Of a stretch of 43,406 nucleotides of DNA, positions 6,694 to 43,138 are shown in pieces. Below the pieces are notes generated by a model. That model was given only the letters and a program-made list of their open reading frames with translations, searched no databases and was not told the DNA's origin. Source of the stretch: Alistipes sp. (GTDB lineage Bacteria > Bacteroidota > Bacteroidia > Bacteroidales > Rikenellaceae); NCBI GenBank assembly GCA_017624955.1, contig JAGAMA010000036.1, forward strand, positions 1-43,406. Reading direction: 5' to 3'. A program made the translations under genes and the position numbers. The number at the start of each line of letters is the position of its first letter. The first letter of the stretch is position 1.

Positions 6694-7494
6694 TTATTTG
6701 CCTTCGAGCCAGGTCATGAAGTCCGTCGTGCGCGAACGCGATACGAATACCTCAAAGTCGGGCTTGGGTATCAGATTGACTTTTAGACGGTTGGATGGAT
6801 GTTTCGAGATGCCTGCAATGGCTCGGATCGAGACGGTGCAGTTGCGCGAAATGCGGAAAAAGTCGGCCGGCGAAAGCTCCTCGGAGAGCTGGTCGAGCGA
6901 CTGATCGAGGATGTAGCGTCGCCCCTCGTTCGTCACCAGGTGGGTGCTCTTGTCCTCGGCGTAGAAGTAGGCCACCTGCGTGGTCTCGATGACCGACAGA
7001 CGATCGCCGAAACGAACCACGAAGCGTTTGCGATAGGTTGCCTCACCCCCCCCCGTAAGGGCACTCTTCAGCGCCTCGATGTCAATCGGTTGCGTGGCGG
7101 GCGTAGCGCTCTGCTCCTCCGCCTTCAGGGCACGGATGCAGCGCTCCACAGCCCCCTCCAACTCCGCCGGGTCGATCGGCTTTAAGAGGTAGTCGATGCT
7201 GTTGATGCGGAAGGCGCGCACGGCATAGTTGTCGTAGGCGGTCGTGATGACCACCTTGGCGCGGACCTCCGTCTCTGTAAAGATGTCGAAGCACATGCCG
7301 TCCGAGAGCTCGACATCCATGAAGATAATGTCGGCGTGGTTGGCCTTATCGCGCAGCCACTCCAACGTGCCGCGCACGGAGCTTTGCAGGCCGATGACGC
7401 GCAGCGATTCAAAACGACGCTCCAGGGCACGCTTCAGGTTGGCCTGGGCCGGAAGTTCGTCTTCGACGATCAGAACATTGTATACGGGTGTCAT
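6694..7494 (-). CDS. LytTR-family response regulator
   Basis: This 266-residue regulator has a CheY-like receiver domain (residues ~5-120). The acidic pocket is in IVEDE, the phospho-acceptor is Asp60 in IIFMDVELSDG, Thr is in VVITTAYD, and Lys is in LLKPID. A LytTR DNA-binding domain follows at ~160-262 (RFVVRFGDRLSVIETTQVAYF … RISRNCTVSIRAI … VSRSRTTDFM). LytTR domains bind paired ~9-bp direct repeats one or two helical turns apart. The start overlaps the kinase stop by 4 bp (ATGA), so the two are translationally coupled. Three 21-bp-spaced repeats upstream of the MFS/Sus operon (8966-9016) are the obvious candidate target. Confidence 0.93.
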   Translation of the reverse strand: MTPVYNVLIVEDELPAQANLKRALERRFESLRVIGLQSSVRGTLEWLRDKANHADIIFMDVELSDGMCFDIFTETEVRAKVVITTAYDNYAVRAFRINSIDYLLKPIDPAELEGAVERCIRALKAEEQSATPATQPIDIEALKSALTGGGEATYRKRFVVRFGDRLSVIETTQVAYFYAEDKSTHLVTNEGRRYILDQSLDQLSEELSPADFFRISRNCTVSIRAIAGISKHPSNRLKVNLIPKPDFEVFVSRSRTTDFMTWLEGK

Positions 7495-8864
7495 AACAGC
7501 GGAAGTTCTACGATAAATTCATCTTCGGTTTGCTCGACCCGGATCGGTTGGTCGGCCAGGTCGAGGTATTGTTGGCGTATGTTTTTCAGCCCCTTGCCCA
7601 TCGAGGGTTGCTTGCTCAGGCGGGGCTGCAGGCGGTTCTTGACACGCAGGTAATCCCCCTCGATCGTAATGACAACCTCTAAGGGCGCTTCGGCGCTGAC
7701 GGCGTTGTGCTTCGTGGCGTTCTCGATCAGCAGCTGCAGGGCGCAGGGGACGATGTGGCGCATGAGCACCTCGGAGGGGATCTCGTAGCGGACATTGAAT
7801 CCGCTCGTGAAGCGCTCCTGCAACAACTCGCCATACTTGCGGGCAAAGGTCAGCTCCTCTTGCAGCGTTACCAGCTCTTCGTCCTCGTTCTTCAGCATAT
7901 AGCGGTAGCAGTCGGCCAACTTGCGGATGAAGGCCGAGGCGCGGTCGGTCTGCTCCTCCTGCACCAGGTAGTCCAGGATGTTGAGCGAGTTGAACAAGAA
8001 GTGCGGGTTGATCTGCATCTTGAGCTTGTTGTAGCGGAACTGCGCCCGATGTTTCTTGCCTCGCTCGGCATGCAGCTCGGCCTGGGCCGTGAGCACATAG
8101 GCCACCAACTTAAAGAGGGCGTAGACCACGATGTCGCACAGGAGAATCACGGCGTAGAGCCTCAGGAAGGGCAGCATGGCGAAGATCTTCTCGTTGCCGT
8201 GCGGAAATTCGTAATAGACCAGAAGGGTGATCAGCGCCGAGAAGCAGATTGTCAGCACGACCGTACCGATAAAACGCCACTCCGTACGATCGAACAGATG
8301 CGCCCGCACGCTGACAAAGAGCATGTTGCCGCAAAGCAGCAGGAGGATGGCCACCGTGTTGTCGAGCAGGTGGTTCAGCTCCGTGGCGATGGAGGTTTGT
8401 GCAAAGTATACCGAGCTGAAAATCAGTGTGTAGGAGATGCGGAAGAGGAGAATCGCCAGCACGATGACGATGATCTGCGCAATGGGGGGCGACCAGCTGA
8501 TGCGCCGTTCGCTGTGCGTTTCGCGCAGACGGGCAAAGGCGTAGACGCCCCAACCGAGCAGCTCGGTGAAGAGGGCTGTCGTCAGGGCGGGAGCCAGCAC
8601 CTCGTCGGAGATGATGCGGGCCACAAGCGAAGCACCAAACGAGCCGAAGAGGTAGCCGGCAAAGGTACCCACAAGGGCCAGAACGGCGATCATCTCGGCC
8701 TGTATGTGGTGGCGGATGGCGATGATGACGACCATGGCCAGGGTCAGGATCGTCAAAGGCACATCATCCACATAATCGGCCATGCGGCTCAGGATGGCAA
8801 TCGCTGCGTGAGCCAGGGCGAAGAGGTGGATAATCCACGGCGTGGAGATCGAAGCTTGTTTCAT
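7491..8864 (-). CDS. LytS-type membrane sensor histidine kinase
   Basis: This protein of about 457 residues has a hydrophobic N-terminal half, roughly six to eight helices and residues ~8-240, with no large periplasmic loop. A short coiled linker and a His_kinase (PF06580) domain follow. The phospho-acceptor is His288 in KMQINPHFLFNSLN. The ATP-binding domain has the N-box in QLLIENATKHNAV and a glycine box in GKGLKNIRQQY. This family partners with LytTR regulators, and the next gene encodes one. ATG 8864 (MKQASISTPW) is preferred over an in-frame GTG five codons upstream. A membrane-embedded sensor of this type may detect an intramembrane or small-molecule signal. The ligand is unknown. Confidence 0.92.
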   Translation of the reverse strand: MKQASISTPWIIHLFALAHAAIAILSRMADYVDDVPLTILTLAMVVIIAIRHHIQAEMIAVLALVGTFAGYLFGSFGASLVARIISDEVLAPALTTALFTELLGWGVYAFARLRETHSERRISWSPPIAQIIVIVLAILLFRISYTLIFSSVYFAQTSIATELNHLLDNTVAILLLLCGNMLFVSVRAHLFDRTEWRFIGTVVLTICFSALITLLVYYEFPHGNEKIFAMLPFLRLYAVILLCDIVVYALFKLVAYVLTAQAELHAERGKKHRAQFRYNKLKMQINPHFLFNSLNILDYLVQEEQTDRASAFIRKLADCYRYMLKNEDEELVTLQEELTFARKYGELLQERFTSGFNVRYEIPSEVLMRHIVPCALQLLIENATKHNAVSAEAPLEVVITIEGDYLRVKNRLQPRLSKQPSMGKGLKNIRQQYLDLADQPIRVEQTEDEFIVELPLL

Positions 8865-8892
8865 GAATCGGTTTTGCACTTTTTCCGAATAC

Positions 8893-8923
8893 GAAAGGTA
8901 TGCATTTTTTGTCTTTTTTGCAA
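8893..8923 (-). promoter_or_regulatory. Promoter of the kinase-regulator-esterase operon
   Basis: On the minus strand TTG (8923-8921), a 20-bp spacer and TACCTTTC (8900-8893, one mismatch to TAnnTTTG) lie about 29 nt before the kinase ATG. It is divergent from the MFS/Sus promoter. Confidence 0.45.
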
Positions 8924-8965
8924 ATTATTTTTCGATTAGTGCCAAAATAGCCCCTTTTGCTCAAA

Positions 8966-9016
8966 CTTTCGTCCGTCCCATCCGTCCGTTCGTCGCTCCG
9001 ATTTCGCCATTCGTCG
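8966..9016 (+). promoter_or_regulatory. Three 9-bp direct repeats with 21-bp period (candidate LytTR sites)
   Basis: CTTTCGTCC (8966-8974), CGTTCGTCG (8987-8995) and CATTCGTCG (9008-9016) share CnTTCGTCs and are each separated by exactly 12 bp. LytTR regulators such as AgrA bind 9-bp direct repeats separated by about 12 bp. The last repeat ends 8 bp before the -33 TTG of the MFS/Sus promoter, an activator position. A LytTR gene lies in the divergent operon. Binding itself is inference. Confidence 0.55.
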
Positions 9017-9024
9017 GAGGTGAA

Positions 9025-9055
9025 TTGGCCGTTTGGGCGCGCCCGCGTATATTTG
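9025..9055 (+). promoter_or_regulatory. Promoter of the MFS/Sus operon
   Basis: TTG (9025-9027), a 20-bp spacer and TATATTTG (9048-9055) match the Bacteroidetes consensus. Transcription would begin near 9062, with the ATG at 9096. The candidate activator repeats lie immediately upstream. Confidence 0.65.
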
Positions 9056-9095
9056 TGTTACCAAACCAAAAAAACTAAACGTAAAAACCTAAAAT

Positions 9096-10403
9096 ATGCA
9101 AAAACGTGACCTGTCGTTTTGGCAGATGTGGAATCTGAGCTTCGGTTTCTTCGGAGTTCAGATCGCTTATGCGCTTCAGAGCGCCAACATCAGCCGTATC
9201 TTCGCCACGCTCGGCGCCGATCCCCACGATTTGAGTTTCTTCTGGATTCTGCCCCCGTTGATGGGTATGATCGTCCAGCCGCTGGTCGGCACCTGGAGCG
9301 ATAAGACCTGGTGCCGTTGGGGCCGTCGTAAGCCCTACCTCTACCTGGGTGCCCTGGTGGCCGTAGCCGTGATGGCCTTCCTCCCGAATGCCGGTTCGCT
9401 CGGCCTGACCGTCAAGATGGCCATGTCGTTCGGCCTGGTGATGCTCATGTTGCTCGATACGTCGATCAATATGGCCATGCAGCCCTTCAAGATGATGGTG
9501 GGCGATATGGTCAATGAGCGCCAAAAGGCCAAGGCCTACTCGATCCAGTCGCTGCTGTGCAACGCCGGTTCGCTGGTGGGCTATCTCTTCCCCTACCTCT
9601 TTACCTGGATCGGTATCTCGAATGTGGCTCCCGAGGGCGTGATTCCCGACTCGGTGATCTACTCGTTCTATGTAGGTGCCGCCATCCTGATCCTCTGTGT
9701 GCTCTACACGGGTGCCACGGTCAAGGAGATGGACCCCAAAGAGTATGCCGCATTCCATAACCTGACGGAAAAAGAGGAGGAGCAGCAGGAGAAGCCCGGT
9801 CTTGTGAAGCTCCTCGTGCACGCTCCGAAGGCCTTCTGGCAGATCGGTCTGGTGCAGTTCTTCTCGTGGGTGGCCTTCCTTTATATGTGGACCTACACGA
9901 ACGGCGGTATCGCCGAGACGATTTGGGGTACGAAGGATGTCGCTTCGGCAGGCTACCAGGCGGCCGGTGACTGGGTCGGCGTACTGTTTGCCGTGCAGGC
10001 CGTGGGTTCGATCCTTTGGGCCATGGTGCTGCCCCTGTTTAAGAACGTCAAGGTGGGCTATGCCGTGAGCCTTGTGCTGGGCGGTCTGGGCTTTATCTCG
10101 ACGGCCATGATTCACGACCAATACTTATTATTTATATCATACCTGCTGATCGGTTGCGGTTGGGCCGCCATGCTGGCCATGCCGTTTGCCCTGTTGACCA
10201 ACTCGCTTTCGGGTAGCTCGATGGGCGCTTATCTCGGTCTGTTCAACTGCACGATCTGCCTGCCGCAGATCATCGCCGCCCTGATCGGTGGCGTGCTGCT
10301 GAAGATGGTCGGTGGCGAGCAGATCATGATGCTCGTCGTAGCCGGTGTCTCGCTCCTCTTGGGTGCGGTGGCCGTGATCGGTATCCAGACCAAGAAGGCG
10401 TAA
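9096..10403 (+). CDS. MFS sugar transporter (SLC45/GPH-like, maltose-type)
   Basis: This 435-residue inner-membrane protein has about 12 hydrophobic helices and a charged central loop (KEMDPKEYAAFHNLTEKEEEQQEK, shown in part). The loop 2-3 signature DKTWCRWGRRKPY and the QSANISRIF … MGMIVQPLVG segments are typical of the sucrose/maltose SLC45-like branch of the major facilitator superfamily. It is the first gene of the starch operon, so it most likely imports glucose or malto-oligosaccharides released in the periplasm. Substrate assignment comes from context. The next gene, susC, follows after 85 bp with no terminator visible, so co-transcription is likely. Confidence 0.9.
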   Translation: MQKRDLSFWQMWNLSFGFFGVQIAYALQSANISRIFATLGADPHDLSFFWILPPLMGMIVQPLVGTWSDKTWCRWGRRKPYLYLGALVAVAVMAFLPNAGSLGLTVKMAMSFGLVMLMLLDTSINMAMQPFKMMVGDMVNERQKAKAYSIQSLLCNAGSLVGYLFPYLFTWIGISNVAPEGVIPDSVIYSFYVGAAILILCVLYTGATVKEMDPKEYAAFHNLTEKEEEQQEKPGLVKLLVHAPKAFWQIGLVQFFSWVAFLYMWTYTNGGIAETIWGTKDVASAGYQAAGDWVGVLFAVQAVGSILWAMVLPLFKNVKVGYAVSLVLGGLGFISTAMIHDQYLLFISYLLIGCGWAAMLAMPFALLTNSLSGSSMGAYLGLFNCTICLPQIIAALIGGVLLKMVGGEQIMMLVVAGVSLLLGAVAVIGIQTKKA

Positions 10404-10488: not shown

Positions 10489-13400
10489 ATGAGAAAATTT
10501 CTCGCAATGTGCTTGGGTATGATGCTACTGGGCATCGTTACCCCGCATCTCGCGCTTGCCCAAGGCAAGTACGAGGTGAAGGGCGTCGTGGTGGACGCCG
10601 CCGGTATCCCCGTGATCGGAGCTACGATCATCGAGGTAGGTACCGTGAACGGTACGACGACCGACATCGACGGTCAGTACGTACTGAATGTAAAAGACGC
10701 CAATTCGGTTGTCTCGGTCAGCTACATCGGTTATAAGACCGTGGAGCTGGTTGCCTCGTCGGAGTTGCTGAAGAACCTGACGCTGGAGGAGGACCTGATG
10801 ACCCTCGACGAAGTCGTCGTGATCGGTTATGGTGGCGTGAAGAAGAGCGATATGACCGGTTCGGTTGTAGCGATCAAGGCCGAGGATGTGAACCGCGGTG
10901 CGGTGACCTCGCCCGATCAGCTGCTGCTGGGTAAGGTGCCGGGTCTGTTGGTAACGCCCGCTTCGGGTGAGCCGGGTACCGGTGCACAGATCCGCATCCG
11001 TGGTAACGCTTCGCTCAACGCCTCGAACAACCCGCTTATCGTGATCGACGGTGTGCCCGTGACGGGCGATGGTGGTGCCGGTATGGGTAACCCGCTGGCT
11101 ACCGTGAACCCCGACGACATCGACACCTACACCGTGCTGAAGGATGCTTCGGCTACGGCTATCTACGGTTCGCGTGCTTCGAACGGTGTGATTATCATCA
11201 CCACGAAGAAGGGTAAGGGCCAGAAGATGCAGGTAAGCTACAACTCGTCGTACACGGTGAAGAACAACTCGGATGAGATTGATGTTCTTTCGGGTCAGGA
11301 GTATGCCGATTACATGACCAATGTATATCAGACCAACGCTTCGGATGCCGAGAAGATCCAGTCGCTGCTGGGTTACAACGGTAAGATCTATGACACCAAC
11401 TGGCAGGATATGATCTACCGCACGGCCTTCTCGACCGACCACGCGCTGTCGGTTTACGGCAACAACGAGAAGGGTAACTTCCCCTATCGTGTTTCGGTAG
11501 GTGCCAACTACGATCAGGGTACGGTAAAGGGTGGTGACAACACGCGTGTAAATGCCAGCGTGAACCTCGCTCCGAAGTTCTTCGACGATCACCTGACCGT
11601 GAACCTGAATGTGAAGGGTCTGTACAACAAGTCGAACTGGACGAACAACGCCGTGGGCGATGCCCTGTCGTATGACCCCACGAAGCCGGTTCACTTCCTC
11701 AACGCTGATGGTACGGTAAATAAGTCGATTGCCAACGGTTACTTCAACTGGGGTATTATCGACGAGGCCGGCAACTTCAACCCCGAGAAGAATGCCAACA
11801 CGAACCCGATGTCGAGCCTGAACGACTATGTAAACTACTCGTCGACCTGGCGTTCGATCGGTAACGTACAGCTCGACTATAAGATCCACGGTCTGGAGGA
11901 TCTGCGTCTGAACCTGAACCTGGGTTATGACGTAGCCGAGTCGCAGGGTACGCAGTACAACACGCTTGGTTCGTATGCCAACCTGAAGTCGGGTGCCGAG
12001 GATTCGTTCTCGAACTGGCGTACCTACAACGCCAACACCCTGTTGGAGTTCTATGCCAACTATAACAAGGAGTTCGGTATCCACCGTCTGGATGTGATGG
12101 GTGGTTACTCGTGGCAGCGCAATTTCGTCAAGACGCAGTCGCTGCGTTACTACAACGCCAACCGTGACGAGTTCCACTCGTCGAGCTCCACGGAGGAGTC
12201 GCGCAAGCCCTATCCGAAGGAGTACTACCTGATCTCGTTCTTCGGTCGTATCAACTACTCGATCGACTCGCGCTACCTGTTCACCTTCACCGTGCGTGAG
12301 GATGCTACGTCGCGCTTCTCGGAGGATAACCGTTGGGGCTTCTTCCCCTCGGCTGCCTTTGCCTGGAACATCGCTCAGGAGCAGTTCCTCCAGGATTCGA
12401 AGGCCCTCTCGGCCCTCAAGCTCCGTCTGGGTTGGGGTCAGACCGGTCAGCAGGATATTGGCGATAACTACTATCCCCACATTCCGCTCTATCAGTATGT
12501 AAACAACGGTAATACGCAGTATATGCCGGGCATCGGCGGTACGCTGGCTCCGCAGGCCTACAACTCGGGTATCAAGTGGGAGACCACGACGACCTACAAT
12601 GCCGGTATCGATTTCGGCTTCCTGTCGGGTCGCATCAATGGTGCTGTGGATTACTACTACCGTCACACGACCGACCTGCTGTCGGAGATTGACGTACCGA
12701 CCGGCTCGAACTTCACGAACCGCCTGATGTCGAACATCGGTGAGATGGTGAACCAGGGTGTCGAGGTATCGTTGAACCTGATCCCCGTACAGACCGAGGA
12801 TTGGAACTGGACGATCAACCTCAATGGTACCTGGCAGCAGACCGAGATTGGTGACCTGAACGACAACTTCGTGAAGGTAGGTTCGTCGCTCTCGGGTACG
12901 GGCGGTAACTCGTCGGTACACTACAAGGGCTTCTCGCCTTACACCTTCTACCTCTACCAGCAGGCTTATGATGCCGCCGGTAAGCCCATCATGAACACCT
13001 TCATCGACCGCAACGAGGATAGTCAGATCACCGAGGATGACAAGTACATCACGGGTCGCTCGGCTACGCCCGACTTCTACTACGGTATCTCGATGCAGCT
13101 CAACTACAAGAATTGGGACTTCGGTTTCAACGGCCACGGTACGATCGGCAACTACGCCATCAACAAGCTGGCAGTCGATAACTCGTCGACCTACTGCGGT
13201 ACGCTGGCTTACAACTACCTGCGCAACCTCAACGAGTACAACTTCCGCACGGGCTTCACGGGCAACACCTCGACCGATCAGGCCTACTCGGATATGTTCA
13301 TTGAGAACGCATCGTTCTTCCGCCTGGATGATATCAACCTCGGTTACACCTTCCGTGAGGTAGGCAAGTCGAAGATGAATATCCGCGTGGCTGCTTCGTG

Positions 13401-13527
13401 CCAGAACGTATTTACGATCACCGACTACTCGGGTCTGGATCCCGAGGTTAACAACGCCGACGGTGTATACAGCACGCTTATCCCGCGTCCTCGTCTCTAC
13501 ACGCTGCGTCTGAACATTAACTTCTAA
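10489..13527 (+). CDS. susC: SusC-like TonB-dependent outer-membrane transporter
   Basis: This 1012-residue barrel imports malto-oligosaccharides across the outer membrane with SusD. In order it has a signal peptide (to ~residue 25, ALAQG) and a carboxypeptidase-D regulatory-like domain (~27-105, VKGVVVDAAGIPVIGATI). A TonB-box-like/SusC signature LDEVVVIGYG comes next, then a plug domain (~115-240 with IRIRGNASLNASNNPL and SRASNGVIIITTKKG) and the beta-barrel, ending LRLNINF. The length is normal for SusC. The gene uses a very strict codon set (TCG Ser, CTG/CTC Leu), consistent with strong expression. It lies 20 bp upstream of susD. Confidence 0.95.
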   Translation: MRKFLAMCLGMMLLGIVTPHLALAQGKYEVKGVVVDAAGIPVIGATIIEVGTVNGTTTDIDGQYVLNVKDANSVVSVSYIGYKTVELVASSELLKNLTLEEDLMTLDEVVVIGYGGVKKSDMTGSVVAIKAEDVNRGAVTSPDQLLLGKVPGLLVTPASGEPGTGAQIRIRGNASLNASNNPLIVIDGVPVTGDGGAGMGNPLATVNPDDIDTYTVLKDASATAIYGSRASNGVIIITTKKGKGQKMQVSYNSSYTVKNNSDEIDVLSGQEYADYMTNVYQTNASDAEKIQSLLGYNGKIYDTNWQDMIYRTAFSTDHALSVYGNNEKGNFPYRVSVGANYDQGTVKGGDNTRVNASVNLAPKFFDDHLTVNLNVKGLYNKSNWTNNAVGDALSYDPTKPVHFLNADGTVNKSIANGYFNWGIIDEAGNFNPEKNANTNPMSSLNDYVNYSSTWRSIGNVQLDYKIHGLEDLRLNLNLGYDVAESQGTQYNTLGSYANLKSGAEDSFSNWRTYNANTLLEFYANYNKEFGIHRLDVMGGYSWQRNFVKTQSLRYYNANRDEFHSSSSTEESRKPYPKEYYLISFFGRINYSIDSRYLFTFTVREDATSRFSEDNRWGFFPSAAFAWNIAQEQFLQDSKALSALKLRLGWGQTGQQDIGDNYYPHIPLYQYVNNGNTQYMPGIGGTLAPQAYNSGIKWETTTTYNAGIDFGFLSGRINGAVDYYYRHTTDLLSEIDVPTGSNFTNRLMSNIGEMVNQGVEVSLNLIPVQTEDWNWTINLNGTWQQTEIGDLNDNFVKVGSSLSGTGGNSSVHYKGFSPYTFYLYQQAYDAAGKPIMNTFIDRNEDSQITEDDKYITGRSATPDFYYGISMQLNYKNWDFGFNGHGTIGNYAINKLAVDNSSTYCGTLAYNYLRNLNEYNFRTGFTGNTSTDQAYSDMFIENASFFRLDDINLGYTFREVGKSKMNIRVAASCQNVFTITDYSGLDPEVNNADGVYSTLIPRPRLYTLRLNINF

Positions 13528-13547
13528 TCAAACCAAGCACTGCAATT

Positions 13548-15230
13548 ATGAAAAAGTTCTTATTATATAGTGTAGCGCTTCTGACCTCGGCTGCGATGAT
13601 CACCTCTTGCTTGGGTGACCTGGATGCCGAGCCGCTGGCCGATACGACCATCACGGCCGACAAGGCCTTCGAGAAGCCGGAGAGCTACGATCAGTATGTG
13701 AACTATGCATACAGCTACTTCTCGCTCGTATCGCAGGGTGATCCGGGTTCGTCGGATATCGCCGTATCGGATGCCGGTCAGAGTGAGTTCACCCGTCAGT
13801 ATATGTTCCTCAACGAGCTTTCGGTCGATGGCCTGAAGTGTATTTGGGGCGATGATTATGTGGATGGTCTGCAGTACAACAAGTGGACGACGACGAATGC
13901 TGCCGTAATGGCCGTTTACCTGCGTGGTCTGAAGGGTGTGGCTATCTGCAACCAGTTCCTCGATGAGACGGTTTCGGGCGACGGTGCCGTATCGGGCCGT
14001 GGTCACGAGTCGAAGCTCTCGGATGTACGCGCTTACCGCGCCGAGATGCGTCTGCTGCGTGCCATCTACTATGAGATTCTGATGGACCTCTATGGCAATC
14101 CTCCTTTGGTATTGCCCGAGAACATCGGTTCGACCAACTTCCCGAAGCAGCTGGGTCGTGAGGGTCTCTTTGCTTGGCTCGAGAACGAGCTGCTGGAGCT
14201 CACGAAGGATGAGTATCTGCCCGCACAGCGCGTAGCATATCCGCGTCTGTCGAAGGGTGCTGCCTGGGCTGTTCTGGCTCGTATGTACCTCAACGCCGAG
14301 GTTTACACCGGTACGGCTCGCTGGGCTGATGCACAGCAGGCTGCCGAGAAGGTAATTGCGGAGGGTGGCTATGAGCTTTGCCCCGAGTATGCCAACCTGT
14401 TCCGTCAGGACAACTCGACCAACGGCGCCCAGAACGAGTTTATCGTAGCTTCGATCTACGATGCTCAGACGACCCAGAGCTGGGGTGGTACGACCCACCT
14501 GCTCTATGCTACGGTGAACAGCGACCTGCGTACCATCGTATCGTCGATGTTCGGCTTCTCGAGCGACATCTATAAGAACCAGTGGAATGGTTACCATGTT
14601 CCCGATGAGTTTGTACAGGAGAACTTCGCTCTTCAGGGTGTTGAGTGGGGTCAGAACACGTCGTGGGGCTACGACCGCGAGGTCAACGATAAGCGTGCCA
14701 TGTTCACCAACGCCGGCTTCAGCCAGAAGTTCGAGAACGAGGTTGCCGATATTACGACCGGTTGGGCTTGCTTGAAGTGGGTTCCCCTGACTTCGGATAA
14801 CCGCCCGAACCTCATTGAGCTCGATATCGAGTTCTCGTCGGCCGACTTCCCGATCTTCCGTCTGGCTGAGATGTACCTGATTTCGGCCGAGGCCGAGGCT
14901 CGTCTCAATGGCGGTTCGCTGACCTCGTCGAGCGCCGGTTACAAGCGCATCGCCGAGCTGCGTGAGCGCGCCAACGGCGTGGCCGATATGCCGCTGACGA
15001 TCGACCTGGATTACATCCTCAAGGAGCGCACGCGTGAGCTCTATTGGGAGGGCCACCGTCGTGTAGACCTGATCCGCTACGGTCACTTCACGTCGGCTTC
15101 GTTCCCCTGGCCCTACAAGGGTGGTATCGAGAATGGTGCCGTGGCTCTGTCGGATCACCTGAAGGTGTTCCCGATCATCACGACCGACCTGATCGCCAAC
15201 CCCAACCTGGTACAGAACCCGGGTTATTAA
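13548..15230 (+). CDS. susD: SusD-like glycan-binding lipoprotein
   Basis: This 560-residue RagB/SusD-family protein forms the lid over the SusC barrel and binds starch. The lipobox MITSC gives lipid attachment at Cys21. The following CLGDLDAEP contains acidic residues of the kind found in Bacteroidetes surface-export signals, so cell-surface display is likely. SusD hallmarks include the N-terminal helical region with YSYFSLV, RLLRAIYYEILMDLYG, and the C-terminal FRLAEMYLISAEAEARL and RTRELYWEGHRRVDLIRYG. It lies between susC and a susE-like gene as in the canonical Sus operon. Confidence 0.95.
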   Translation: MKKFLLYSVALLTSAAMITSCLGDLDAEPLADTTITADKAFEKPESYDQYVNYAYSYFSLVSQGDPGSSDIAVSDAGQSEFTRQYMFLNELSVDGLKCIWGDDYVDGLQYNKWTTTNAAVMAVYLRGLKGVAICNQFLDETVSGDGAVSGRGHESKLSDVRAYRAEMRLLRAIYYEILMDLYGNPPLVLPENIGSTNFPKQLGREGLFAWLENELLELTKDEYLPAQRVAYPRLSKGAAWAVLARMYLNAEVYTGTARWADAQQAAEKVIAEGGYELCPEYANLFRQDNSTNGAQNEFIVASIYDAQTTQSWGGTTHLLYATVNSDLRTIVSSMFGFSSDIYKNQWNGYHVPDEFVQENFALQGVEWGQNTSWGYDREVNDKRAMFTNAGFSQKFENEVADITTGWACLKWVPLTSDNRPNLIELDIEFSSADFPIFRLAEMYLISAEAEARLNGGSLTSSSAGYKRIAELRERANGVADMPLTIDLDYILKERTRELYWEGHRRVDLIRYGHFTSASFPWPYKGGIENGAVALSDHLKVFPIITTDLIANPNLVQNPGY

Positions 15231-15271
15231 TCGAAGCGAAACAGATATTAAACGCTTAAAACGAAAAGATT

Positions 15272-16342
15272 ATGAAATACATGAAATATCTTGCGACCCT
15301 CGCCATGGCAGCGTTTACGTTTGCTTCGTGTGAGACGGACGTGGAGCAGGTTAAGCTCGCCCCCGAGTCGGAGTTCGTGACTCCGGTGCTCAGTGAGCAG
15401 GGCGACATCGTGGTCAATGCCGACAACGTAGAAAAGGAGGCGGTAACCTTCACCTGCTCGGAGGCCGATTTCGGTCAGCCGGTAGCTATCAGCTACAAAC
15501 TCTACTTTGAGAAGGATGGTACGGAGGTCTTCGTGGCCGAGTCGAACTATCCCGCTATCACGATTAAGAAGTCGGATCTGAATGGTAAAATCGTCAATGG
15601 TCTGGGCGTTGCCGCCAACGAGTCGGCCGTGATCAATGCCTATATCATCGCCTTTGCCGGTGCTTCGGAGATGAGCACGCAGAAGTCGAACGTGATCTCG
15701 TTCTCGGTGCAGACCTTCAAGGCTGCCATGCGTAAGTATCACCTCTGCGGTGTGTTCAATGGCTGGGATGCCGGTAACGCCGTTGAGATTTGGGAGAACA
15801 AGGGTGGCTCGAACATCTACGAGGCCCTGGTAAATCTGCCCGAGGATGCTACCAACACGCCGGGTATGTCGGGCTTCAAGGTGCTGCCGAACCGCGCTTG
15901 GGACGGTGGCGAGTTGGGCTATGGCGGTTTCTCGACCCTGGGTGCCCAGTTCGAGTCGTCGAGCGACGGTAACCTGCTGCTGCCCGCCGGTATCTGGCTC
16001 ATCACGATCGACCTGAACAACATGGCTATCGATGCCAAGCAGTACACGCAGGTAGATATCATGGGTTCGTTCAACGGTTGGTCGGATCCGATGGTGATGA
16101 CCTACGATGCAGCAGCCAACGTATGGAAGACCCCGTCGGCTATCGATGCAGGTCAGGAGTTCAAGTTCCGCCTGAACAACAGCTGGGATGTAAACTACGG
16201 TGGTGGTACGGACGCTTCGGAGCTCTATCCCGAGGGCTTCGAGCTGATTCAGGGTGCAGGTAACATCCTCTGCCCCTCGAATGCAGTGATCTGTCTGCAC
16301 GCCAACTGCACGCCGTGGGTTGTAACCTATGAAGTACAGTAA
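15272..16342 (+). CDS. susE: SusE-like starch-binding lipoprotein
   Basis: This 356-residue lipoprotein has the lipobox TFASC (Cys20), followed by the acidic CETDVEQ expected of a surface lipoprotein. Residues ~30-145 resemble the SusE Ig-like N-terminal domain (DNVEKEAVTFTCSEADFG … KSNVISFSV). Two starch-binding modules of SusE/SusF type follow, opening with YHLCGVFNGWDAG (~153) and VDIMGSFNGWSDP (~260). This architecture and length are close to B. thetaiotaomicron SusE. The protein has no catalytic domain and is expected to retain starch at the surface. ATG 15272 and an in-frame ATG at 15281 are both possible starts. Confidence 0.88.
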   Translation: MKYMKYLATLAMAAFTFASCETDVEQVKLAPESEFVTPVLSEQGDIVVNADNVEKEAVTFTCSEADFGQPVAISYKLYFEKDGTEVFVAESNYPAITIKKSDLNGKIVNGLGVAANESAVINAYIIAFAGASEMSTQKSNVISFSVQTFKAAMRKYHLCGVFNGWDAGNAVEIWENKGGSNIYEALVNLPEDATNTPGMSGFKVLPNRAWDGGELGYGGFSTLGAQFESSSDGNLLLPAGIWLITIDLNNMAIDAKQYTQVDIMGSFNGWSDPMVMTYDAAANVWKTPSAIDAGQEFKFRLNNSWDVNYGGGTDASELYPEGFELIQGAGNILCPSNAVICLHANCTPWVVTYEVQ

Positions 16343-16368
16343 GTAAGTAGAGTCAAAACACGACGGAT

Positions 16369-16413
16369 GAGTGGGGCTGAAGCCCCCGCGGTCGAAGCCC
16401 CCTCACCGTTTTT
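16369..16413 (+). terminator. Attenuator-like terminator between susE and susF
   Basis: GAG-T-GGGGCT (16369-16378) can pair with AGCCCC-CTC (16396-16404), followed closely by CGTTTTT. The same left arm GGGGCT can alternatively pair with the adjacent AGCCCC at 16380-16385. Two mutually exclusive hairpins, one of them terminator-like, lie inside the operon, suggesting partial termination. Confidence 0.55.
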
Positions 16414-16431
16414 AACAACAACAAAGCAAAC

Positions 16432-19400
16432 ATGAAAGTTTTCAGATATTTAGTAGCTCTGGTAGCCGGCGTGATGGCCTTCACGGCTTGTGAGAAGGAT
16501 CCCGCCGATCTCTACGGTGTAGAGGCTACGGCTCCGGTCATGGATGCGCACGCCGACATCCTTTTGACGGAGAACACGCTCAGCGAGACGATCACCTTCT
16601 CGTGGAAGGAGGCTCGCGGTATGGGCAACGATGTGATGTACACGCTCTATGCTACGCTGGACGGTCAGGAGGTTTCGCTCACGACCACCAACGGTACCTA
16701 TTTCACGGCCGGTAAGGATGCTTTCCGCACGCAGCTGTTGAACGGCTTCGGTCTGACGCCCAACGATAACTTCTCGATCGGCATGTATGTAGCTGCCGAC
16801 AACGGCGTGACGGTCGTTAAGTCGGAGTCGATCACGATGAATGTCTTCGTTTATGGCGACTATGTACCCGCCATCGTATCGGTAGCCGAGGGCGCCGAGG
16901 GTGGTGTCGTACTGACCGATGCCCTGACCGAGGATATCGAGCTGATCAACTGGACGGCTGCCCGCTTCGAGTATGGCACGAACCCGCTCTACAAGGTGGA
17001 GATCGTTTACAACGACGGTGCTCGTCAGGAGCTGGCCAGCGGTATGGCTGCCCAGAAGTTCTCGATGGCTCCCTCGACGCTGAACTCGACGCTCATCGCG
17101 CTGGGTTGCCCGAAGGATGCTGCCAGCGATGTTCAGTTCATCGTTACGTCGTACCTCGAGGGCGAGGGTGCTCCCCAGCTCGAGTCGACGGCCGTAACGG
17201 TTACGGTAACGACCTATACCCCCTCGTATCCCGAGTTCGTACAGCTTTGCGGTGACTTCGGTGGCCACGCTTGGAACACGGAGAGCGCACTGCCGATCCT
17301 CAAGGGCGATGCCAACACGGGTGTTTACCACGGTGTGGTTTCGATCTATGGTCAGGAGTGGGGCTTTAAGGTGATCTACACCAACCCGAAGGACCAGTCG
17401 GTTGTTTGGATGGGTGGTACGGCTACTTCGGAGGCCGAGCCTTACACCTTCTCGATCAGCGCTTCGGCAGGTAACATGATGCAGGTGGCCGATGGTGCAG
17501 GTGGTGTTGAGGGTACGTTCGTATTCTACCTCGATTTGGCTGCCGCACAGCTCACGATGGCTCCCGTTTCGTCGATCGGTCTGATCGGTTCGGCTACGGA
17601 GAAGGGCTGGGATGGCCAGACGAACTTCGAGTACAACCCCGAGACCGGTGCTATGGAGCTCAAGGGCGTTACGCTGGGCGAGGGTGCTTACAAGGTGCGT
17701 GTGAACGACAACTGGGGCAACCCGTGGGAGGATCCCTATGCCTACAACCTGGGTGGCGATCCGAACGATATGACCTTCGGTGGCTCGGATATTCCGTCGG
17801 AGCCGGGTGTATACGATGTAACGATGAATCTCTCGACGAGCGCTAACTACGCCTTGACCTTCGCCAAGACGGGTGATGTGGTTATCGAGGATCCGATGAC
17901 GAAGAACTACGGCCTGGTTGGTACGATCAACAACTGGGGCGAGACGGCTGATCTGGTATTCGAGGCTGTTGAGGGTAAGGATTACAAGGTTGTGAAGAAT
18001 GTCACGCTGAAGGCCGAGGATCAGATCAAGATCCGCGTAGATCAGGATTGGAATGAGAACTATGGTGGCGAGGGTGAGACCGAGCCTTATGCCCTGACTG
18101 CAGGTTCGAAGGTTACGCTCGTAGCCGGTGGTAAGAATATGTCGATGGCTGCCGGTTCGTATGACTTCTACTTCTATCCCAAGACCAAGGAGCTGATCGC
18201 CGTGGCTGCAGGTGAGAACCTGCCGACGGGCGAGTCGATCTACGGTCTGGTTGGTGTACTCAACGGTTGGGCTGCTCCCGACGTGAAGTTCACCGACAAG
18301 GGCACGGGCGAGCATGTACTGCTCGGTCAGGCACTGGGTGCAAGCGAGGGCTTCAAGATCCGCGCTAACGATGAGTGGAACGATGCCGAGAACTATGGTA
18401 CGCTCAATGGCGGTATCGTAGCTATCGACAGCGAGATTACGCTGGTGAACGGCGGTGGTAGCAAGGATATGATGGTGGAGACTGCAGGTACCTATGACCT
18501 CTACTTCTATCCTGCCGACCTGAAGCTCTATGTGATGACCCCGGGCAAGACCCCCGCCGATGCAGGCGAGCCGGTTGTTCCTCCCACGCCGACCGAGACC
18601 GTTTACTCGGTAGCCGGTGATTTCAACAGCTGGGGTGAGACGGATATGACCGATAACGGTGACGGCTTCTTCGTGCTGAAGAACCAGGCTATCGTTGCAG
18701 GCAACGGCTTCAAGTTCAAGAAGAACCACTCGTGGGCCGATGCTGACTGCTGGGGTGTGGATGCCGCTACGACGGTAACCATCGGCGAGGCTATCTCGCT
18801 CATCCAGCCGGGTGCCAACATCCCCGTTTCGGTGGATGGTACGTTCGACATCTATTTCAACCCCACGACGGCTACGGCTTATGTGATGAACGCAGGTGAG
18901 GTTCCGGGTACGCCCGCTCCCGCCGCTCACACCTACAACCTCGTAGGCTCGTTTAATGGTTGGAATGTTACTGATACGGCCTACGCTATGACCGCATCGG
19001 CTACGGATACCTACACCTTCTCGAACATCACGCTGAATGCTTACGACGAGTTCAAGATTGCCGAGGACTACGCTTGGGCAGTTGCCTATGGTGCAGCCGC
19101 TACGGTGGCTCTGGACCAGAAGTTTGCCGTTTCGACCAGCGGTGGCAATATCGTAATGCCCGCTACGGGTACCTTCAACATCACCTTCTATGCCGCAACG
19201 AGCGAGCTGCTGATCGAGGCAGTAGGTCAGGTGACCTATCCGACCCCCGGCGGTGAGGATATCTCGATTGGCCTGGTGGGCGATATGACCGGTTGGTCGG
19301 CTACGGGCGACATCCTCTTCACGAAGCAGGCCGGTGGTGTTTACACCATCGAGAGCGTGGCTTTGACCGCTGCTCAGGGCTTCAAGGTGCGTAAGACTCC

Positions 19401-20097
19401 TACGGCAGAGAAGGAGTGGGATGACCGCTACAACTGGGGTCTTGCTGCTTCGGGTGCCCTGACGACGGGTGTCGATAACGACCTGATTTGCGGTGGCGGT
19501 GCAGGCAACATCTATGTAGCCGAGGACGGCAACTATAAGGTAACCTTCACCCCCGCAACCGACGACAAGGGTGTCATTCCTTCGCAGCCTGCCAAGATTA
19601 AGGTAGAGAAGATCGTAGAGACCCCCTCGACCCCCGCAACGGTGCTGGAGTGGGGCAATGATGTATGGAAGGCTATGCAGGAGAAGTATGGCACGGGCGA
19701 GACGTCCGATGCGTACATCGATTGCGGTAATGGTCTCCAGTTCAGCAAAGGCTCGGGCAAGGGCGTGAAGTTCGGTGGTAGCGATCCCAACTGCCGAGTT
19801 CAGTTGAGTGGTTCGGGTAACGCCACTGAGAAGTGCGTATTCCTGCTGACGGTATCGGGCCCCGGTACGCTGATGGTTGATATGCAGGCCAGTGGTTACA
19901 AGGAGGGTGAGACCCGCAAGATGGGTGTTGCTATCGATGGTACCGATACGGCTTCGGATGGCTATTTCGCCGATCCCGATTCGCGCACCATTTATACCGT
20001 AGATTGCTCGAAGGCAGCTGCTAATTCGATTGTTTCGATCTACAGTATGAAGAGTGGTATCAACATCTTTGATATCAAGTGGACGCCTGCCCAGTAA
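16432..20097 (+). CDS. Giant SusF-like lipoprotein with seven tandem starch-binding-type modules
   Basis: This 1221-residue lipoprotein (lipobox AFTAC, Cys20; CEKDPAD follows) has two Ig-like SusE/SusF N-terminal regions (~30-140 and ~145-260). Seven modules then start near residues 267, 380, 492, 603, 724, 834 and 944. Each opens with a hydrophobic-G-x-x-x-x-W strand such as YGLVGTINNW, YGLVGVLNGW, YSVAGDFNSW, YNLVGSFNGW or SIGLVGDMTGW. Most carry a later aromatic strand (YDFYFYPKT, YDLYFYPAD, FDIYFNPTT). The last ~150 residues (from ~1071) are a distinct domain I do not recognise. SusF of B. thetaiotaomicron is about 485 residues with three modules, so this is a strong expansion. It sits where susF is expected. 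Its predicted role is multivalent starch capture at the cell surface. Confidence 0.88.
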   Translation: MKVFRYLVALVAGVMAFTACEKDPADLYGVEATAPVMDAHADILLTENTLSETITFSWKEARGMGNDVMYTLYATLDGQEVSLTTTNGTYFTAGKDAFRTQLLNGFGLTPNDNFSIGMYVAADNGVTVVKSESITMNVFVYGDYVPAIVSVAEGAEGGVVLTDALTEDIELINWTAARFEYGTNPLYKVEIVYNDGARQELASGMAAQKFSMAPSTLNSTLIALGCPKDAASDVQFIVTSYLEGEGAPQLESTAVTVTVTTYTPSYPEFVQLCGDFGGHAWNTESALPILKGDANTGVYHGVVSIYGQEWGFKVIYTNPKDQSVVWMGGTATSEAEPYTFSISASAGNMMQVADGAGGVEGTFVFYLDLAAAQLTMAPVSSIGLIGSATEKGWDGQTNFEYNPETGAMELKGVTLGEGAYKVRVNDNWGNPWEDPYAYNLGGDPNDMTFGGSDIPSEPGVYDVTMNLSTSANYALTFAKTGDVVIEDPMTKNYGLVGTINNWGETADLVFEAVEGKDYKVVKNVTLKAEDQIKIRVDQDWNENYGGEGETEPYALTAGSKVTLVAGGKNMSMAAGSYDFYFYPKTKELIAVAAGENLPTGESIYGLVGVLNGWAAPDVKFTDKGTGEHVLLGQALGASEGFKIRANDEWNDAENYGTLNGGIVAIDSEITLVNGGGSKDMMVETAGTYDLYFYPADLKLYVMTPGKTPADAGEPVVPPTPTETVYSVAGDFNSWGETDMTDNGDGFFVLKNQAIVAGNGFKFKKNHSWADADCWGVDAATTVTIGEAISLIQPGANIPVSVDGTFDIYFNPTTATAYVMNAGEVPGTPAPAAHTYNLVGSFNGWNVTDTAYAMTASATDTYTFSNITLNAYDEFKIAEDYAWAVAYGAAATVALDQKFAVSTSGGNIVMPATGTFNITFYAATSELLIEAVGQVTYPTPGGEDISIGLVGDMTGWSATGDILFTKQAGGVYTIESVALTAAQGFKVRKTPTAEKEWDDRYNWGLAASGALTTGVDNDLICGGGAGNIYVAEDGNYKVTFTPATDDKGVIPSQPAKIKVEKIVETPSTPATVLEWGNDVWKAMQEKYGTGETSDAYIDCGNGLQFSKGSGKGVKFGGSDPNCRVQLSGSGNATEKCVFLLTVSGPGTLMVDMQASGYKEGETRKMGVAIDGTDTASDGYFADPDSRTIYTVDCSKAAANSIVSIYSMKSGINIFDIKWTPAQ
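17572..19600 (+). repeat. Tandem repeats encoding SusF modules 2-7
   Basis: Six consecutive coding repeats start near 17572, 17908, 18241, 18604, 18934 and 19264, with a spacing of about 330-363 bp. The similarity is clearest at protein level (VG…W opening, aromatic strand FYFYP-like near the end). Modules 3 and 4 look most alike (YGLVG, then ETAGTYDLYFYP / MAAGSYDFYFYP). They probably arose by internal duplication followed by divergence. Confidence 0.75.
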
Positions 20098-20112
20098 GCA
20101 GCTTTTCCGATC

Positions 20113-20178
20113 CACGACCTTGGGTAAGGTAGGTTGGTGGGTCGTGTATAGGCCGAGGTGCTTTGATCGGCACCTCGG
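20113..20178 (+). other. Two hairpins between susF and susG
   Basis: CACGACC/GGTCGTG (20113-20119 with 20140-20146) encloses a second option, ACCTT-GGGT-AAGGT. It is followed by a 9-bp perfect stem CCGAGGTGC/GCACCTCGG (20153-20161 with 20170-20178). No T-run follows, so simple termination is unlikely. Transcript stabilisation or processing of the 3' end of the upstream message is more plausible. Confidence 0.55.
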
Positions 20179-20209
20179 TCACCAGACAAAATAAAAAACA
20201 GTTTAGGTT

Positions 20210-22510
20210 ATGAAGCGAATTTTTGATTACCTGCAACTCTCGTTGCTGGTGGCTGCCCTGGCCCTGATGACGGCCTGCGGTGGCGATGGCGGCACGGATG
20301 AACCCGAAAAGCCGCAAACCCCTACTGAGCTGATCGTGTCGCCCTCGACATTTACCTTTGGGGCCGAGGGCGGTCAGCAGGATGTAACGATTGAAGCTCC
20401 CGCTTCGTGGTCGGTAAGCGCGGGCGCATGGTGTAATTTGAACCCCAAGCAGGGTTCGAAGGGTAAGACCGTGGCCAAGTTGGTCGTGCCGGCCAACACG
20501 GGCAAGGAGCGTTCGGCCGAGTTGGTTGTAACGGCTGCAGGTGGTTACTCGAAGTCGATTACGGTAACGCAGGCTGCCAACGCCGCCTCGTCGGACTACC
20601 TGGTGGCACAGCCCGACCAGTGGGACGGCAAGACGCGCGGTGAGATGATCTACGAGGTGCTGGTCTATGCCTTTGCCGACGGCGACGGCGACGGCATGGG
20701 CGACTTCAACGGTGTTACGCAGAAGATGGACTACATCGCCTCGCTCGGTGCAGGTGCTATCTGGCTCTCGCCGATTCATCCGGCCGATTCGTACCACGGT
20801 TACGATGTGACGGACTACACGGCCGTGAATCCCAAGTTCGGTACGATGACCGACTTCGAGAACCTCGTTAAGGCGGCTCACGCGAAGAACATCAAGGTTT
20901 ACCTCGACTATGTCGTAAACCACACGGGTAAGGGTCACCCCTGGTACACCGATGCGTTGGCCAATGGCGAGAAGAGCGCAACGTGGAATTACTACAACCT
21001 CTCGTATAATCCGGCTGCCGATGTGGCTGCGGGTAAGTTCCCGATGGTTTCGACCTACACCGCGGACGATTGGAAAACGCCCGACGGCATGAGCGATCCC
21101 GTGACGACGACCCACCGCTATAAGTTTACGATTAAGACCTCGAACGGCAAGCCCTCGACCGTCAAGGTGGAGAACACGGAGGAGGCTGCCCAGGCCGACA
21201 ACACGGACACGAAGGTCAATATGTTCCTCTGGTATGGTGCCGAGGGTGCTGCCCATCGCATGTACGACAAGGGCAACGGCATCTACGAGCTCGTTTGCGA
21301 TTTCAACTCGCCCTGGGGCTTTCTGGTTCGCACCTCGAACACCACCTGGGATGGCGGTACGAAGTGGGGTGGTAACGGCACGCCCATTACGCTCGGCAAG
21401 GAGTATCCGCTGAACAACTCGACGGCTGCCGATTTGCAGTTCGAGGATATGTTGTCGCTCAAGATCTTCGCCCCGATCTTCGGTGTGTGGATGCCCGAGC
21501 TGAACTACGGCGTGATCGGCGACCTGCGCCAGAACAAGCCCTATCAGCACATCATCGCCTCGGCCAAGGGTTGGCTGGATAAGGGTGTGGATGGTTTCCG
21601 CCTCGATGCGGCGAAGCATGTCTACGGTATTTGGTCGATCGACTCGCGCGACTACACCTTCTGGTCGAATTTCCACGCGGATCTGAACGCTTACTACAAG
21701 ACCACGCCGCAGTACAACGGCAAGGATCTCTACCTGGTGGCCGAGATCTTTGACGGTACGAGTGTCGTGTCGGGCTTTGCCCGCAATACGCCCCTCTCGT
21801 GCTTCAACTTCGACTTCTGGTGGAATATCCGCGAGGATGTGAAGACGGGTGTGGGTCGCAATGTGGCTACGAAGCTCAAGGGCTTCCAGCAGCAGCTCAC
21901 CGCAGCCAAATCGACCTACATCGATGCCGTGAAGCTGACGAACCACGATGAGAACCGCGCCGGCGAGGACCTGGAGGGTAACATTAACCGTATGCGCATG
22001 GCGGGTGCTCTGCTGCTGACCGTATCGGGTCGCCCCGTTGTTTACTACGGCGAGGAGCTGGGCTACACGGGCTCGAAGGAGGCAAATGACCTCTACATCC
22101 GTCAGCCGATGCGCTGGAGCACGACCGAGTATCCGAAGTACACGGGTGCCCTGCTCCCCTCGTTCGAGAAGCTCAATACGGTGGCCGATCTGGAGAAGAA
22201 CGCCAACTCGATCCTGAGCACCTACCGCGTGCTGGGTCAGCTTCGAAACATCTATCCCGCCATGACGGAGCTGGGTACGATGACCCCCTGCTACGCATCG
22301 ACGAGTTATCCGGCAGCCCTCTCGGCCTTCTACCGCGAGTATCAGGGTCAGAAGTTGCTCGTGATGCACAACGTGGCCGGTCAGCCGATCGAGGTGACGA
22401 TTAACGATACGGTGGATAAGGCTGTGGCGGTTGTCGGTGGCGATATCGCCCTGGTCGATAAGACGGTCAAGATGCCGGGCTTCTCGACGGTTGTATTCCT
22501 CCTTAAATAA
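20210..22510 (+). CDS. susG: SusG-like surface alpha-amylase (GH13) with BACON domain and CBM58-like insert
   Basis: This 766-residue lipoprotein has the lipobox LMTAC (Cys23) followed by CGGDGGTDEPE, an acidic stretch fitting surface export. Residues ~41-124 form a BACON domain (VSPSTFTFGAEGGQQDVTI … WCNLNP). The GH13 catalytic domain starts near 145 (YEVLVYAFADGDGDGMGDF). A foreign beta-rich segment at ~300-413 interrupts it at the place where SusG carries CBM58. The catalytic triad is visible: Asp466 (GFRLDAAKH), Glu512 (LVAEIFDG) and Asp580 (TNHDENRAG). B. thetaiotaomicron SusG is about 692 residues and lacks BACON, which accounts for the greater length. The expected role is endo-cleavage of starch at the cell surface. 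Confidence 0.93.
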   Translation: MKRIFDYLQLSLLVAALALMTACGGDGGTDEPEKPQTPTELIVSPSTFTFGAEGGQQDVTIEAPASWSVSAGAWCNLNPKQGSKGKTVAKLVVPANTGKERSAELVVTAAGGYSKSITVTQAANAASSDYLVAQPDQWDGKTRGEMIYEVLVYAFADGDGDGMGDFNGVTQKMDYIASLGAGAIWLSPIHPADSYHGYDVTDYTAVNPKFGTMTDFENLVKAAHAKNIKVYLDYVVNHTGKGHPWYTDALANGEKSATWNYYNLSYNPAADVAAGKFPMVSTYTADDWKTPDGMSDPVTTTHRYKFTIKTSNGKPSTVKVENTEEAAQADNTDTKVNMFLWYGAEGAAHRMYDKGNGIYELVCDFNSPWGFLVRTSNTTWDGGTKWGGNGTPITLGKEYPLNNSTAADLQFEDMLSLKIFAPIFGVWMPELNYGVIGDLRQNKPYQHIIASAKGWLDKGVDGFRLDAAKHVYGIWSIDSRDYTFWSNFHADLNAYYKTTPQYNGKDLYLVAEIFDGTSVVSGFARNTPLSCFNFDFWWNIREDVKTGVGRNVATKLKGFQQQLTAAKSTYIDAVKLTNHDENRAGEDLEGNINRMRMAGALLLTVSGRPVVYYGEELGYTGSKEANDLYIRQPMRWSTTEYPKYTGALLPSFEKLNTVADLEKNANSILSTYRVLGQLRNIYPAMTELGTMTPCYASTSYPAALSAFYREYQGQKLLVMHNVAGQPIEVTINDTVDKAVAVVGGDIALVDKTVKMPGFSTVVFLLK

Positions 22511-22521
22511 GTGCAAGAACG

Positions 22522-23850: not shown

Positions 23851-23886
23851 CGGGCGTTAAGAACCTGAAACGAAAAAGAACCAACT

Positions 23887-25986: not shown

Positions 25987-25999
25987 ATAACGAAGAACC

Positions 26000-27355: not shown

Positions 27356-27375
27356 ACCCCGATGGATTGGTGGGT

Positions 27376-27420
27376 GCGTATGGTAGGGTGCCCTTGTGGC
27401 CCCTCCATACGCCTTTTTTA
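27376..27420 (+). terminator. Strong terminator inside the Sus gene cluster
   Basis: GCGTATGG-T-AGGG (27376-27388) pairs with CCCT-CCATACGC (27401-27412), followed by C and six T. It lies 20 bp after a GH13 stop and only 12 bp before the susA-like ATG, too close to leave room for a separate promoter. The downstream gene must depend on read-through. Confidence 0.75.
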
Positions 27421-27431
27421 ACGAAACAAGC

Positions 27432-42745: not shown

Positions 42746-43138
42746 CTATTTGCGCTTGCTGAGCATCTTTAAGATTTCGTCCGTCTCCTCCACGGAGATC
42801 GATTTGTTATCCGAAAAGAAGCTCACAAGGCGCGAAAGCGACCCATCGAAAAAGTTGTTCAGTACCCCCTTCATGTAACGCGAGGTGTACTCCTCCTTCG
42901 AGACCGTGGGGAAGTACTCATGGGTCTTGCCATAGGCCTTGTGATCGACAAAGCCCTTCTTCTCGAGGATGCGGACGATGGTCGATACGGTGTTGTAGGC
43001 GGGACGAGGCTCCTCGAACTCCTCCAAAAAATCGTGTACCACGCCTCGCCCCTTGCGCCAGAGGATCTGCATCACCTCCAGCTCGGCACGGGTCAGCTCT
43101 TGCGGCCGCTCGGTGCGTTTTGTTTGTTGTTCTACCAT
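42746..43138 (-). CDS. BlaI/MecI-family transcriptional repressor
   Basis: This 130-residue winged-helix repressor reads LTRAELEVMQILWRKG (first helix), then RPAYNTVSTIVRILEKKGFVDH (recognition helix and wing, shown in part) and YGKTHEYFPTVSKEEY. A C-terminal dimerisation helix includes MKGVLNNFFDGSLSRLVSFF, where BlaI-type proteins are cut by their partner protease. It is the first gene of an operon with a BlaR1-like sensor. It likely represses its own promoter through the dyad at 43177-43203. Confidence 0.92.
   Translation of the reverse strand: MVEQQTKRTERPQELTRAELEVMQILWRKGRGVVHDFLEEFEEPRPAYNTVSTIVRILEKKGFVDHKAYGKTHEYFPTVSKEEYTSRYMKGVLNNFFDGSLSRLVSFFSDNKSISVEETDEILKMLSKRK

Follow-up and report, generated by a model that had tools for sequence, protein, structure and literature searches.

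A conserved triple direct repeat at a starch operon promoter in Alistipes sp., putatively a three-site LytTR operator

Introduction

Glycan loci in Bacteroides are described as being under the control of three types of regulator, i.e. SusR-like proteins, hybrid two-component systems and ECF sigma factors (PMC3878776); LytTR does not appear in the main text of that paper. LytTR regulators, most of which are said to act as activators, recognise operators made of two 9-bp direct repeats with a spacing of 10-13 bp (PMC11347149, accessible part), and they are reported to be without a common consensus (PMC4847170, likewise). An RR[LytTR] regulator is named in an arabinoxylan locus of Firmicutes (accessible part of PMC5320581). 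In the open-access literature, as far as its texts were accessible, we found neither a paper that connects LytTR regulators with a starch locus of Bacteroidales nor an account of the control of starch use in Alistipes-like bacteria, which occur in many animal guts according to the titles of their records.

Here, we analyse a stretch of 43,406 nucleotides from Alistipes sp. (contig JAGAMA010000036.1), termed "the window" below. A sequence-only reading of this DNA had noticed three repeats between a LytTR two-component pair and a starch operon, and had proposed that the pair replaces SusR as the activator of that operon. We consider it very likely that positions 8965-9016 form a three-site LytTR operator through which the paired kinase and regulator would activate the MFS-SusCDE-SusG operon.

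Results

A starch-type Sus operon and its neighbours

The genes around the repeats are those that the sequence-only reading described: a LytTR regulator and a kinase on the minus strand and, on the plus strand, an MFS transporter followed by Sus genes (Table 1). Ten co-directional genes (9096-29321, plus strand) run from the MFS gene through the GH13 genes with intergenic gaps of at most 112 bp; this stretch contains 8 promoter-like sites, compared with 10.3 in shuffles, and 8 terminator-like sites, compared with 13.1. The families of a Sus locus are present, namely PF07715/PF00593, PF07980, PF14292 and PF00128 with PF20756; the SusD protein, at 304 bits, stays under the NCBIfam cut-off for SusD itself (725). 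PF20756 was found in four of 247 genomes of the order, this genome included, and one of the four led to SusR. A SusG search in five named genomes returned no match.

Between the SusG-like amylase and the three GH13 genes lies a GH53 gene (22522-23850, plus strand) of the endo-beta-1,4-galactanase family, which is unexpected in a starch locus. Elsewhere in the window, a single protein (40670-42721, minus strand) carries both BlaR1-type M56 and M23 peptidase domains, and its gene is adjoined by a penicillinase-repressor-type gene (42746-43138).

SusR, which had been called absent from the sequence alone, was not matched in the genome either: a SusR protein query (L276:15417-17006, above the NF058541 cut-off) found no match in this genome, which is 93.5% complete. 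With no SusR among the regulators of the window and no match elsewhere in the genome, the locus does not class as SusR-controlled. SusR was matched in G006 and G007 of ten other genomes of the genus tested, and was not matched in G310 and G357, two of the four PF20756 genomes.

Table 1 Features of the regulatory region and the operon in the window
Feature	Position	Strand	Basis
LytTR response regulator, 266 aa	6694..7494	-	PF00072 and PF04397 above cut-off; candidate binder of the three sites
Membrane histidine kinase, 462 aa, LytS-type kinase domain	7491..8879	-	PF06580 above cut-off
Putative operator site 1	8965..8974	+	ACTTTCGTCC; 9-mer of the sequence-only reading, CTTTCGTCC, 8966-8974
Putative operator site 2	8986..8995	+	CCGTTCGTCG; 9-mer of the sequence-only reading, CGTTCGTCG, 8987-8995
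Putative operator site 3	9007..9016	+	CCATTCGTCG; 9-mer of the sequence-only reading, CATTCGTCG, 9008-9016
-33 element TTG of the transporter promoter	9025..9027	+	Offset from last repeat base, profile peak
-7 element TATATTTG	9048..9055	+	ANNTTYG offset, profile peak
MFS sugar transporter, first gene of the proposed operon	9096..10403	+	PF07690, PF13347
SusC, SusD, SusE, 1221-aa SusE-domain protein, SusG-like amylase with CBM58, GH53, three GH13	10489..29321	+	Pfam, gaps

The LytTR regulator and its partner kinase

The regulator has the make-up of a LytTR response regulator, with a receiver and a LytTR domain both above the Pfam cut-offs and with the phospho-acceptor Asp and the Lys in place (Asp60 and Lys105, invariant in 33 aligned sequences). 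It is not an equivalog of LytR or of BtsR, scoring 83.6 bits against the NCBIfam cut-off of 375 for the former and 79.7 against 246 for the latter. The kinase carries a PF06580 domain complete with H-box and N-box, of which His293 and the N-box are invariant in 30 aligned sequences. The name LytS, under which it had first been read, suits this kinase domain and not the sensor part: the LytS-type 5TM sensor domain is not listed by Pfam at E <= 0.001, and no NCBIfam family matched the protein. A structure model (pTM 0.49) places about eight helices ahead of the kinase part, and the best fold match is the GanS kinase domain. We draw no inference on the ligand since the 50 Foldseek rows listed match mainly kinase parts and the model has this pTM. 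At some regulator matches, open frames measure about 720-758 aa, which prompted the idea of a kinase-regulator fusion. The idea was dropped on the evidence of one locus, L156, where a stop closes the kinase frame and the regulator is read in a different one.

Three repeats at a phase of 21 bp

The three 9-mers stand on the plus strand at the positions first proposed, in an exact 21-bp phase that leaves 12 bp between neighbours, as had been claimed (Table 1). Three conserved copies of 9 bp spaced by 12 bp agree with the description of LytTR operators as direct repeats of about 9 bp with 10-13 bp spacing. In relatives, the conserved unit begins one base before these 9-mers, i.e. at 8965, 8986 and 9007.

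An array of this kind might arise by chance or through local repetition of CGTCC. The stretch 8970-8990 is indeed CGTCC-rich, and pairs of repeats are not enriched genome-wide (186 matches with at most one mismatch, against 369 for the backwards pattern). However, YTTCGTC repeated three times at 21-bp phase, with up to three mismatches, is matched once in the window where 0.01 matches are expected (mean of 100 shuffles), and in relatives the repeats persist though the spacers differ: in a conservation profile of 88 loci, the repeat blocks average 1.04 bits and the spacers 0.24, with a flat 0.06 upstream. We therefore hold this explanation to be barely credible.

Nine exact YTCGTC-N15-YTCGTC pairs are found in the genome, two of which make up the triple. 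A TTCGTC pair at 21-bp phase upstream of another SusC-like gene (L241; C35:56218-56244, minus strand) was considered as a second target in the same genome and found to be unsupported in relatives, the related SusC loci of eight genomes showing no such pair (one of them, L290, begins inside the gene, so that its upstream region is not covered). A TTCGCC/TTCGTC pair, also at 21-bp phase (L234; C23:5298-5324, minus strand), follows a membrane LytTR paralogue and precedes an outer-membrane-protein-like gene, and may be the site of that paralogue. An Rfam search of 8700-9400 gave no match up to E = 1.

The triple is conserved in relatives that carry the pair

If the sequence-only reading is right, the repeats should be conserved in relatives that keep the same gene order. 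They are, and the claim survived. Regulator matches at E <= 1e-20, paralogues included, occur in 175 of 180 genomes of the genus. Beyond five that were already in the set, 88 further regulator matches of at least 45% identity were present among the matches listed; 87 regions were examined, in 73 of which the transporter is divergent and adjoins the kinase. The set that was scored comprised 98 regions, from which L149, L167, L176 and L220 had been removed beforehand because their kinase is cut or missing; these 98 regions are related and are not independent samples.

A start matrix was derived from five triples, that of the window and those of four close relatives (L001-L005), and was tested on the 93 other regions. 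A period of 21 bp proved the best of all periods from 10 to 40 in 62 of the 93, the next best (39) being so in 5, while 31 showed no preference for period 21. The mean best-triple score was 10.6 at period 21 and between -3.4 and -9.6 at every other period. As controls, we used 43 orthologous transporters at loci without a kinase/regulator pair, taken from the best 80 named transporter loci; in the 300 bp upstream of these, the mean at period 21 was -12.9 and period 21 came out best in 1 of 43. With a fitted block matrix and a score of at least 15, the triple was found in 88 of the 98 regulator-linked regions, in 6 of 9,800 Markov shuffles and in none of the 43 controls (600 bp upstream; again from the best 80 named loci), and other gaps between 15 and 26 were found in at most 5 of the 98. 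Because the block matrix was fitted to the very regions that it scored, the period test is the cleaner evidence. The kinase is present in 37 of the best 80 named transporter loci and absent in 43. Seven of these 37 are named only Bacteroidales bacteria (L089, L090, L093, L094, L118, L121 and L137); their kinases are 34-41% identical to that of the window, and each has the triple.

Sequence variants were seen within this set. In a large group (e.g. L182, L198 and L211), the third repeat is CCTTTGGGT, often inside a short palindrome ACCCTTTGGGT, and the first is CCATTCGGT or CCGTTCGGT, with the 21-bp phase retained. In L080, L083 and L085, from records named Tidjanibacter sp., two repeats are clear, the third is poor or missing, and there is no match to the -7 element at the usual distance.

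The triple keeps its place at the transporter promoter

Bacteroidota promoters follow a -33/-7 consensus. The sequence-only reading had placed a good promoter 8 bp after the last repeat. The 8 bases between repeat 3 and the TTG stand, and an E. coli-type scan lists TTGGCC-17-TATATT (9/12) here, but it is a Bacteroidota-type -33/-7 pair, TTG and TATATTTG, that conservation picks out. The profile has separate peaks at -33 and -7, neither of which was included in the matrix fit. Counted from the last repeat base, the TTG lies at an offset of 9 in 53 of the 88 loci and of 10 in 6; for ANNTTYG the offset is 33 in 66 loci and 34 in 7. Repeat 1, on the other hand, lies anywhere from 45 to 503 bp away from the start of the kinase match, depending on the locus. 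Thus, the triple keeps its place at the promoter of the transporter rather than at the kinase.

Rearranged loci were also inspected. The triple is lacking from ten of the 98 regions (L083, L151, L154, L156, L159, L175, L177, L193, L204 and L209). In all ten the kinase had no transporter next to it, and the region scored was its upstream sequence, to a maximum of 700 bp. In eight of the ten, the triple was found upstream of the displaced transporter instead: within the same locus for L154, L156 and L159, and elsewhere in the same genome for L151, L175, L177, L193 and L204 (in L270, L268, L267, L266 and L265, respectively). It also lies upstream of the transporter in L176, where the kinase is cut or missing. 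L209 reaches the contig end, and a scan of the whole locus places a triple (18.0) on the other side of the regulator. In L083, no triple is found by matrix and two repeats are seen by eye; one of the sites is poor in L080 and likewise in L085. In L203 (G115), a triple (20.5) and a -7 element at the usual distance lie upstream of a kinase with no adjoining transporter; the best transporter match of that genome, L269, scores 14.8, below the threshold.

These data bear on the possibility that the two-component system does bind the repeats, but either acts as a repressor of the operon or serves mainly to control its own divergent genes. Repression has a precedent in CoxC, a LytTR repressor whose three repeats overlap the -35 box (PMC11347149, accessible part), and the intergenic region examined here is common to the kinase gene. 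However, the repeats stop short of the -33 element, on its upstream side, and a control mainly of the pair's own genes sits poorly with a kinase distance that varies where that to the transporter promoter is near-fixed, and with rearranged loci in which the triple stays with the transporter. We judge both forms of this explanation improbable, and prefer activation of the operon.

The site sequence follows the two-component system

Distances between site sequences at 80 loci correlate with those of the LytTR domain (r = 0.71), the receiver (0.71) and the kinase (0.72), and less with those of the transporter (0.33). In partial Mantel tests (n = 80), the correlation of site with LytTR domain given the transporter is 0.67, while that of site with transporter given the LytTR domain is -0.03; 423 of 500 permutations gave a value at least as high. 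Site with LytTR domain given the receiver, and site with receiver given the LytTR domain, both yield 0.21. Since receiver and kinase correlate as the LytTR domain does, the test points to the two-component system as a whole and not to the DNA-binding domain; and since the spacers also correlate with the LytTR domain (0.48), shared ancestry explains part of the signal.

Loci in which the two partners have diverged unequally give the same picture. Where the regulator is at least 60% and the transporter less than 50% identical (8 loci), 23.4 of 27 site positions on average match the window, close to the 23.3 of loci alike in both (6 loci). Where the regulator is below 52% and the transporter at least 70% (50 loci), 15.3 of 27 match. 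As judged from these sequence comparisons, the site goes with the two-component system and not with the transporter.

A different regulator might bind the repeats, for example another LytTR protein of the genome, in which seven LytTR matches were found, the window's regulator included. Yet the site co-varies in sequence with this particular pair, and orthologous transporter promoters without the pair are also without the triple (0/43 of the pair-less loci among the best 80 named). Binding by another regulator is, in our view, a distinctly remote prospect, and the partner encoded next to the repeats is the preferred binder.

Among the same 80 loci, a LacI-type gene homologous to that of L098 immediately precedes the transporter at 27 of the 43 loci that lack the pair and at none of the 37 that have it. 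The proposal that the pair "replaces SusR" is therefore too specific: its negative half agrees with the lack of a SusR match in this genome, but the exchange at this promoter may have been of LacI for LytTR.

Discussion

Comparison among relatives indicates that the putative operator is conserved, is fixed at the transporter promoter and diverges in sequence together with the two-component proteins. Our model of how it might work is as follows. The membrane histidine kinase would phosphorylate its partner, the LytTR response regulator, which would then sit on the three sites, two helical turns apart and on one face of the DNA. Once bound, the regulator could help RNA polymerase at the adjacent -33/-7 promoter, and the co-directional MFS-SusCDE-SusG-GH53-GH13 genes would be switched on. 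Direct binding and activation are predicted from the position of the sites and from the way most LytTR regulators are said to work, and a dependence on phosphorylation is presumed. The signal of the kinase may be a starch-derived sugar or a related metabolic state.

A LytTR pair that switches on starch use would be unusual for such gut bacteria, LytTR not being among the three regulator types of Bacteroides loci in the accessible part of PMC3878776. We lean towards the broader view that LytTR two-component systems form a further class of regulators of Bacteroidales glycan loci, beside SusR, hybrid systems and ECF sigma factors, in which a sensor with no recognised sugar-binding domain would drive a starch operon through a three-site operator, across the genus Alistipes and at other loci named only as Bacteroidales. 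A further suggestion from the comparison is that regulators of different kinds have been exchanged at one conserved transporter gene, some lineages using a LacI-type protein and others a two-component system. With regulator, operator and promoter all named, the model is directly testable, and the motif can be used to seek such control elsewhere.

The system proposed here shares features with several known ones. In B. thetaiotaomicron, a starch-type SusC/SusD locus likewise has a dedicated activator, but SusR is a single membrane regulator whose predicted sites are 67 or 77 bp apart (PMC3878776, accessible part). The LacI-type gene (e.g. L098) occupies the regulator's place at the same transporter gene, but is on the same strand as the transporter and belongs to another protein family. 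The E. coli YpdA/YpdB system is a LytS/LytTR-type pair, whose repeats GGCATTTCAT are 21 bp apart by our count on the printed oligonucleotide; it has two sites rather than three, another sensor and another target (PMC4847170, accessible part). The CATTTCAT of the YpdB repeats recurs in the middle site of one clade (e.g. L171, L183 and L201), a likeness that is a lead and no proof because LytTR regulators lack a common consensus. The operators of RcoM1 and CoxC resemble the array in layout: a LytTR domain binds three promoter-adjacent direct repeats at intervals of about two helical turns, the RcoM1 repeat unit being TTCNNGCA. They differ in that RcoM1 and CoxC govern CO-oxidation (cox) genes where a starch operon is found here, and in that CoxC has its own membrane sensor and represses where a separate kinase/regulator pair is encoded here (PMC11347149, accessible part).
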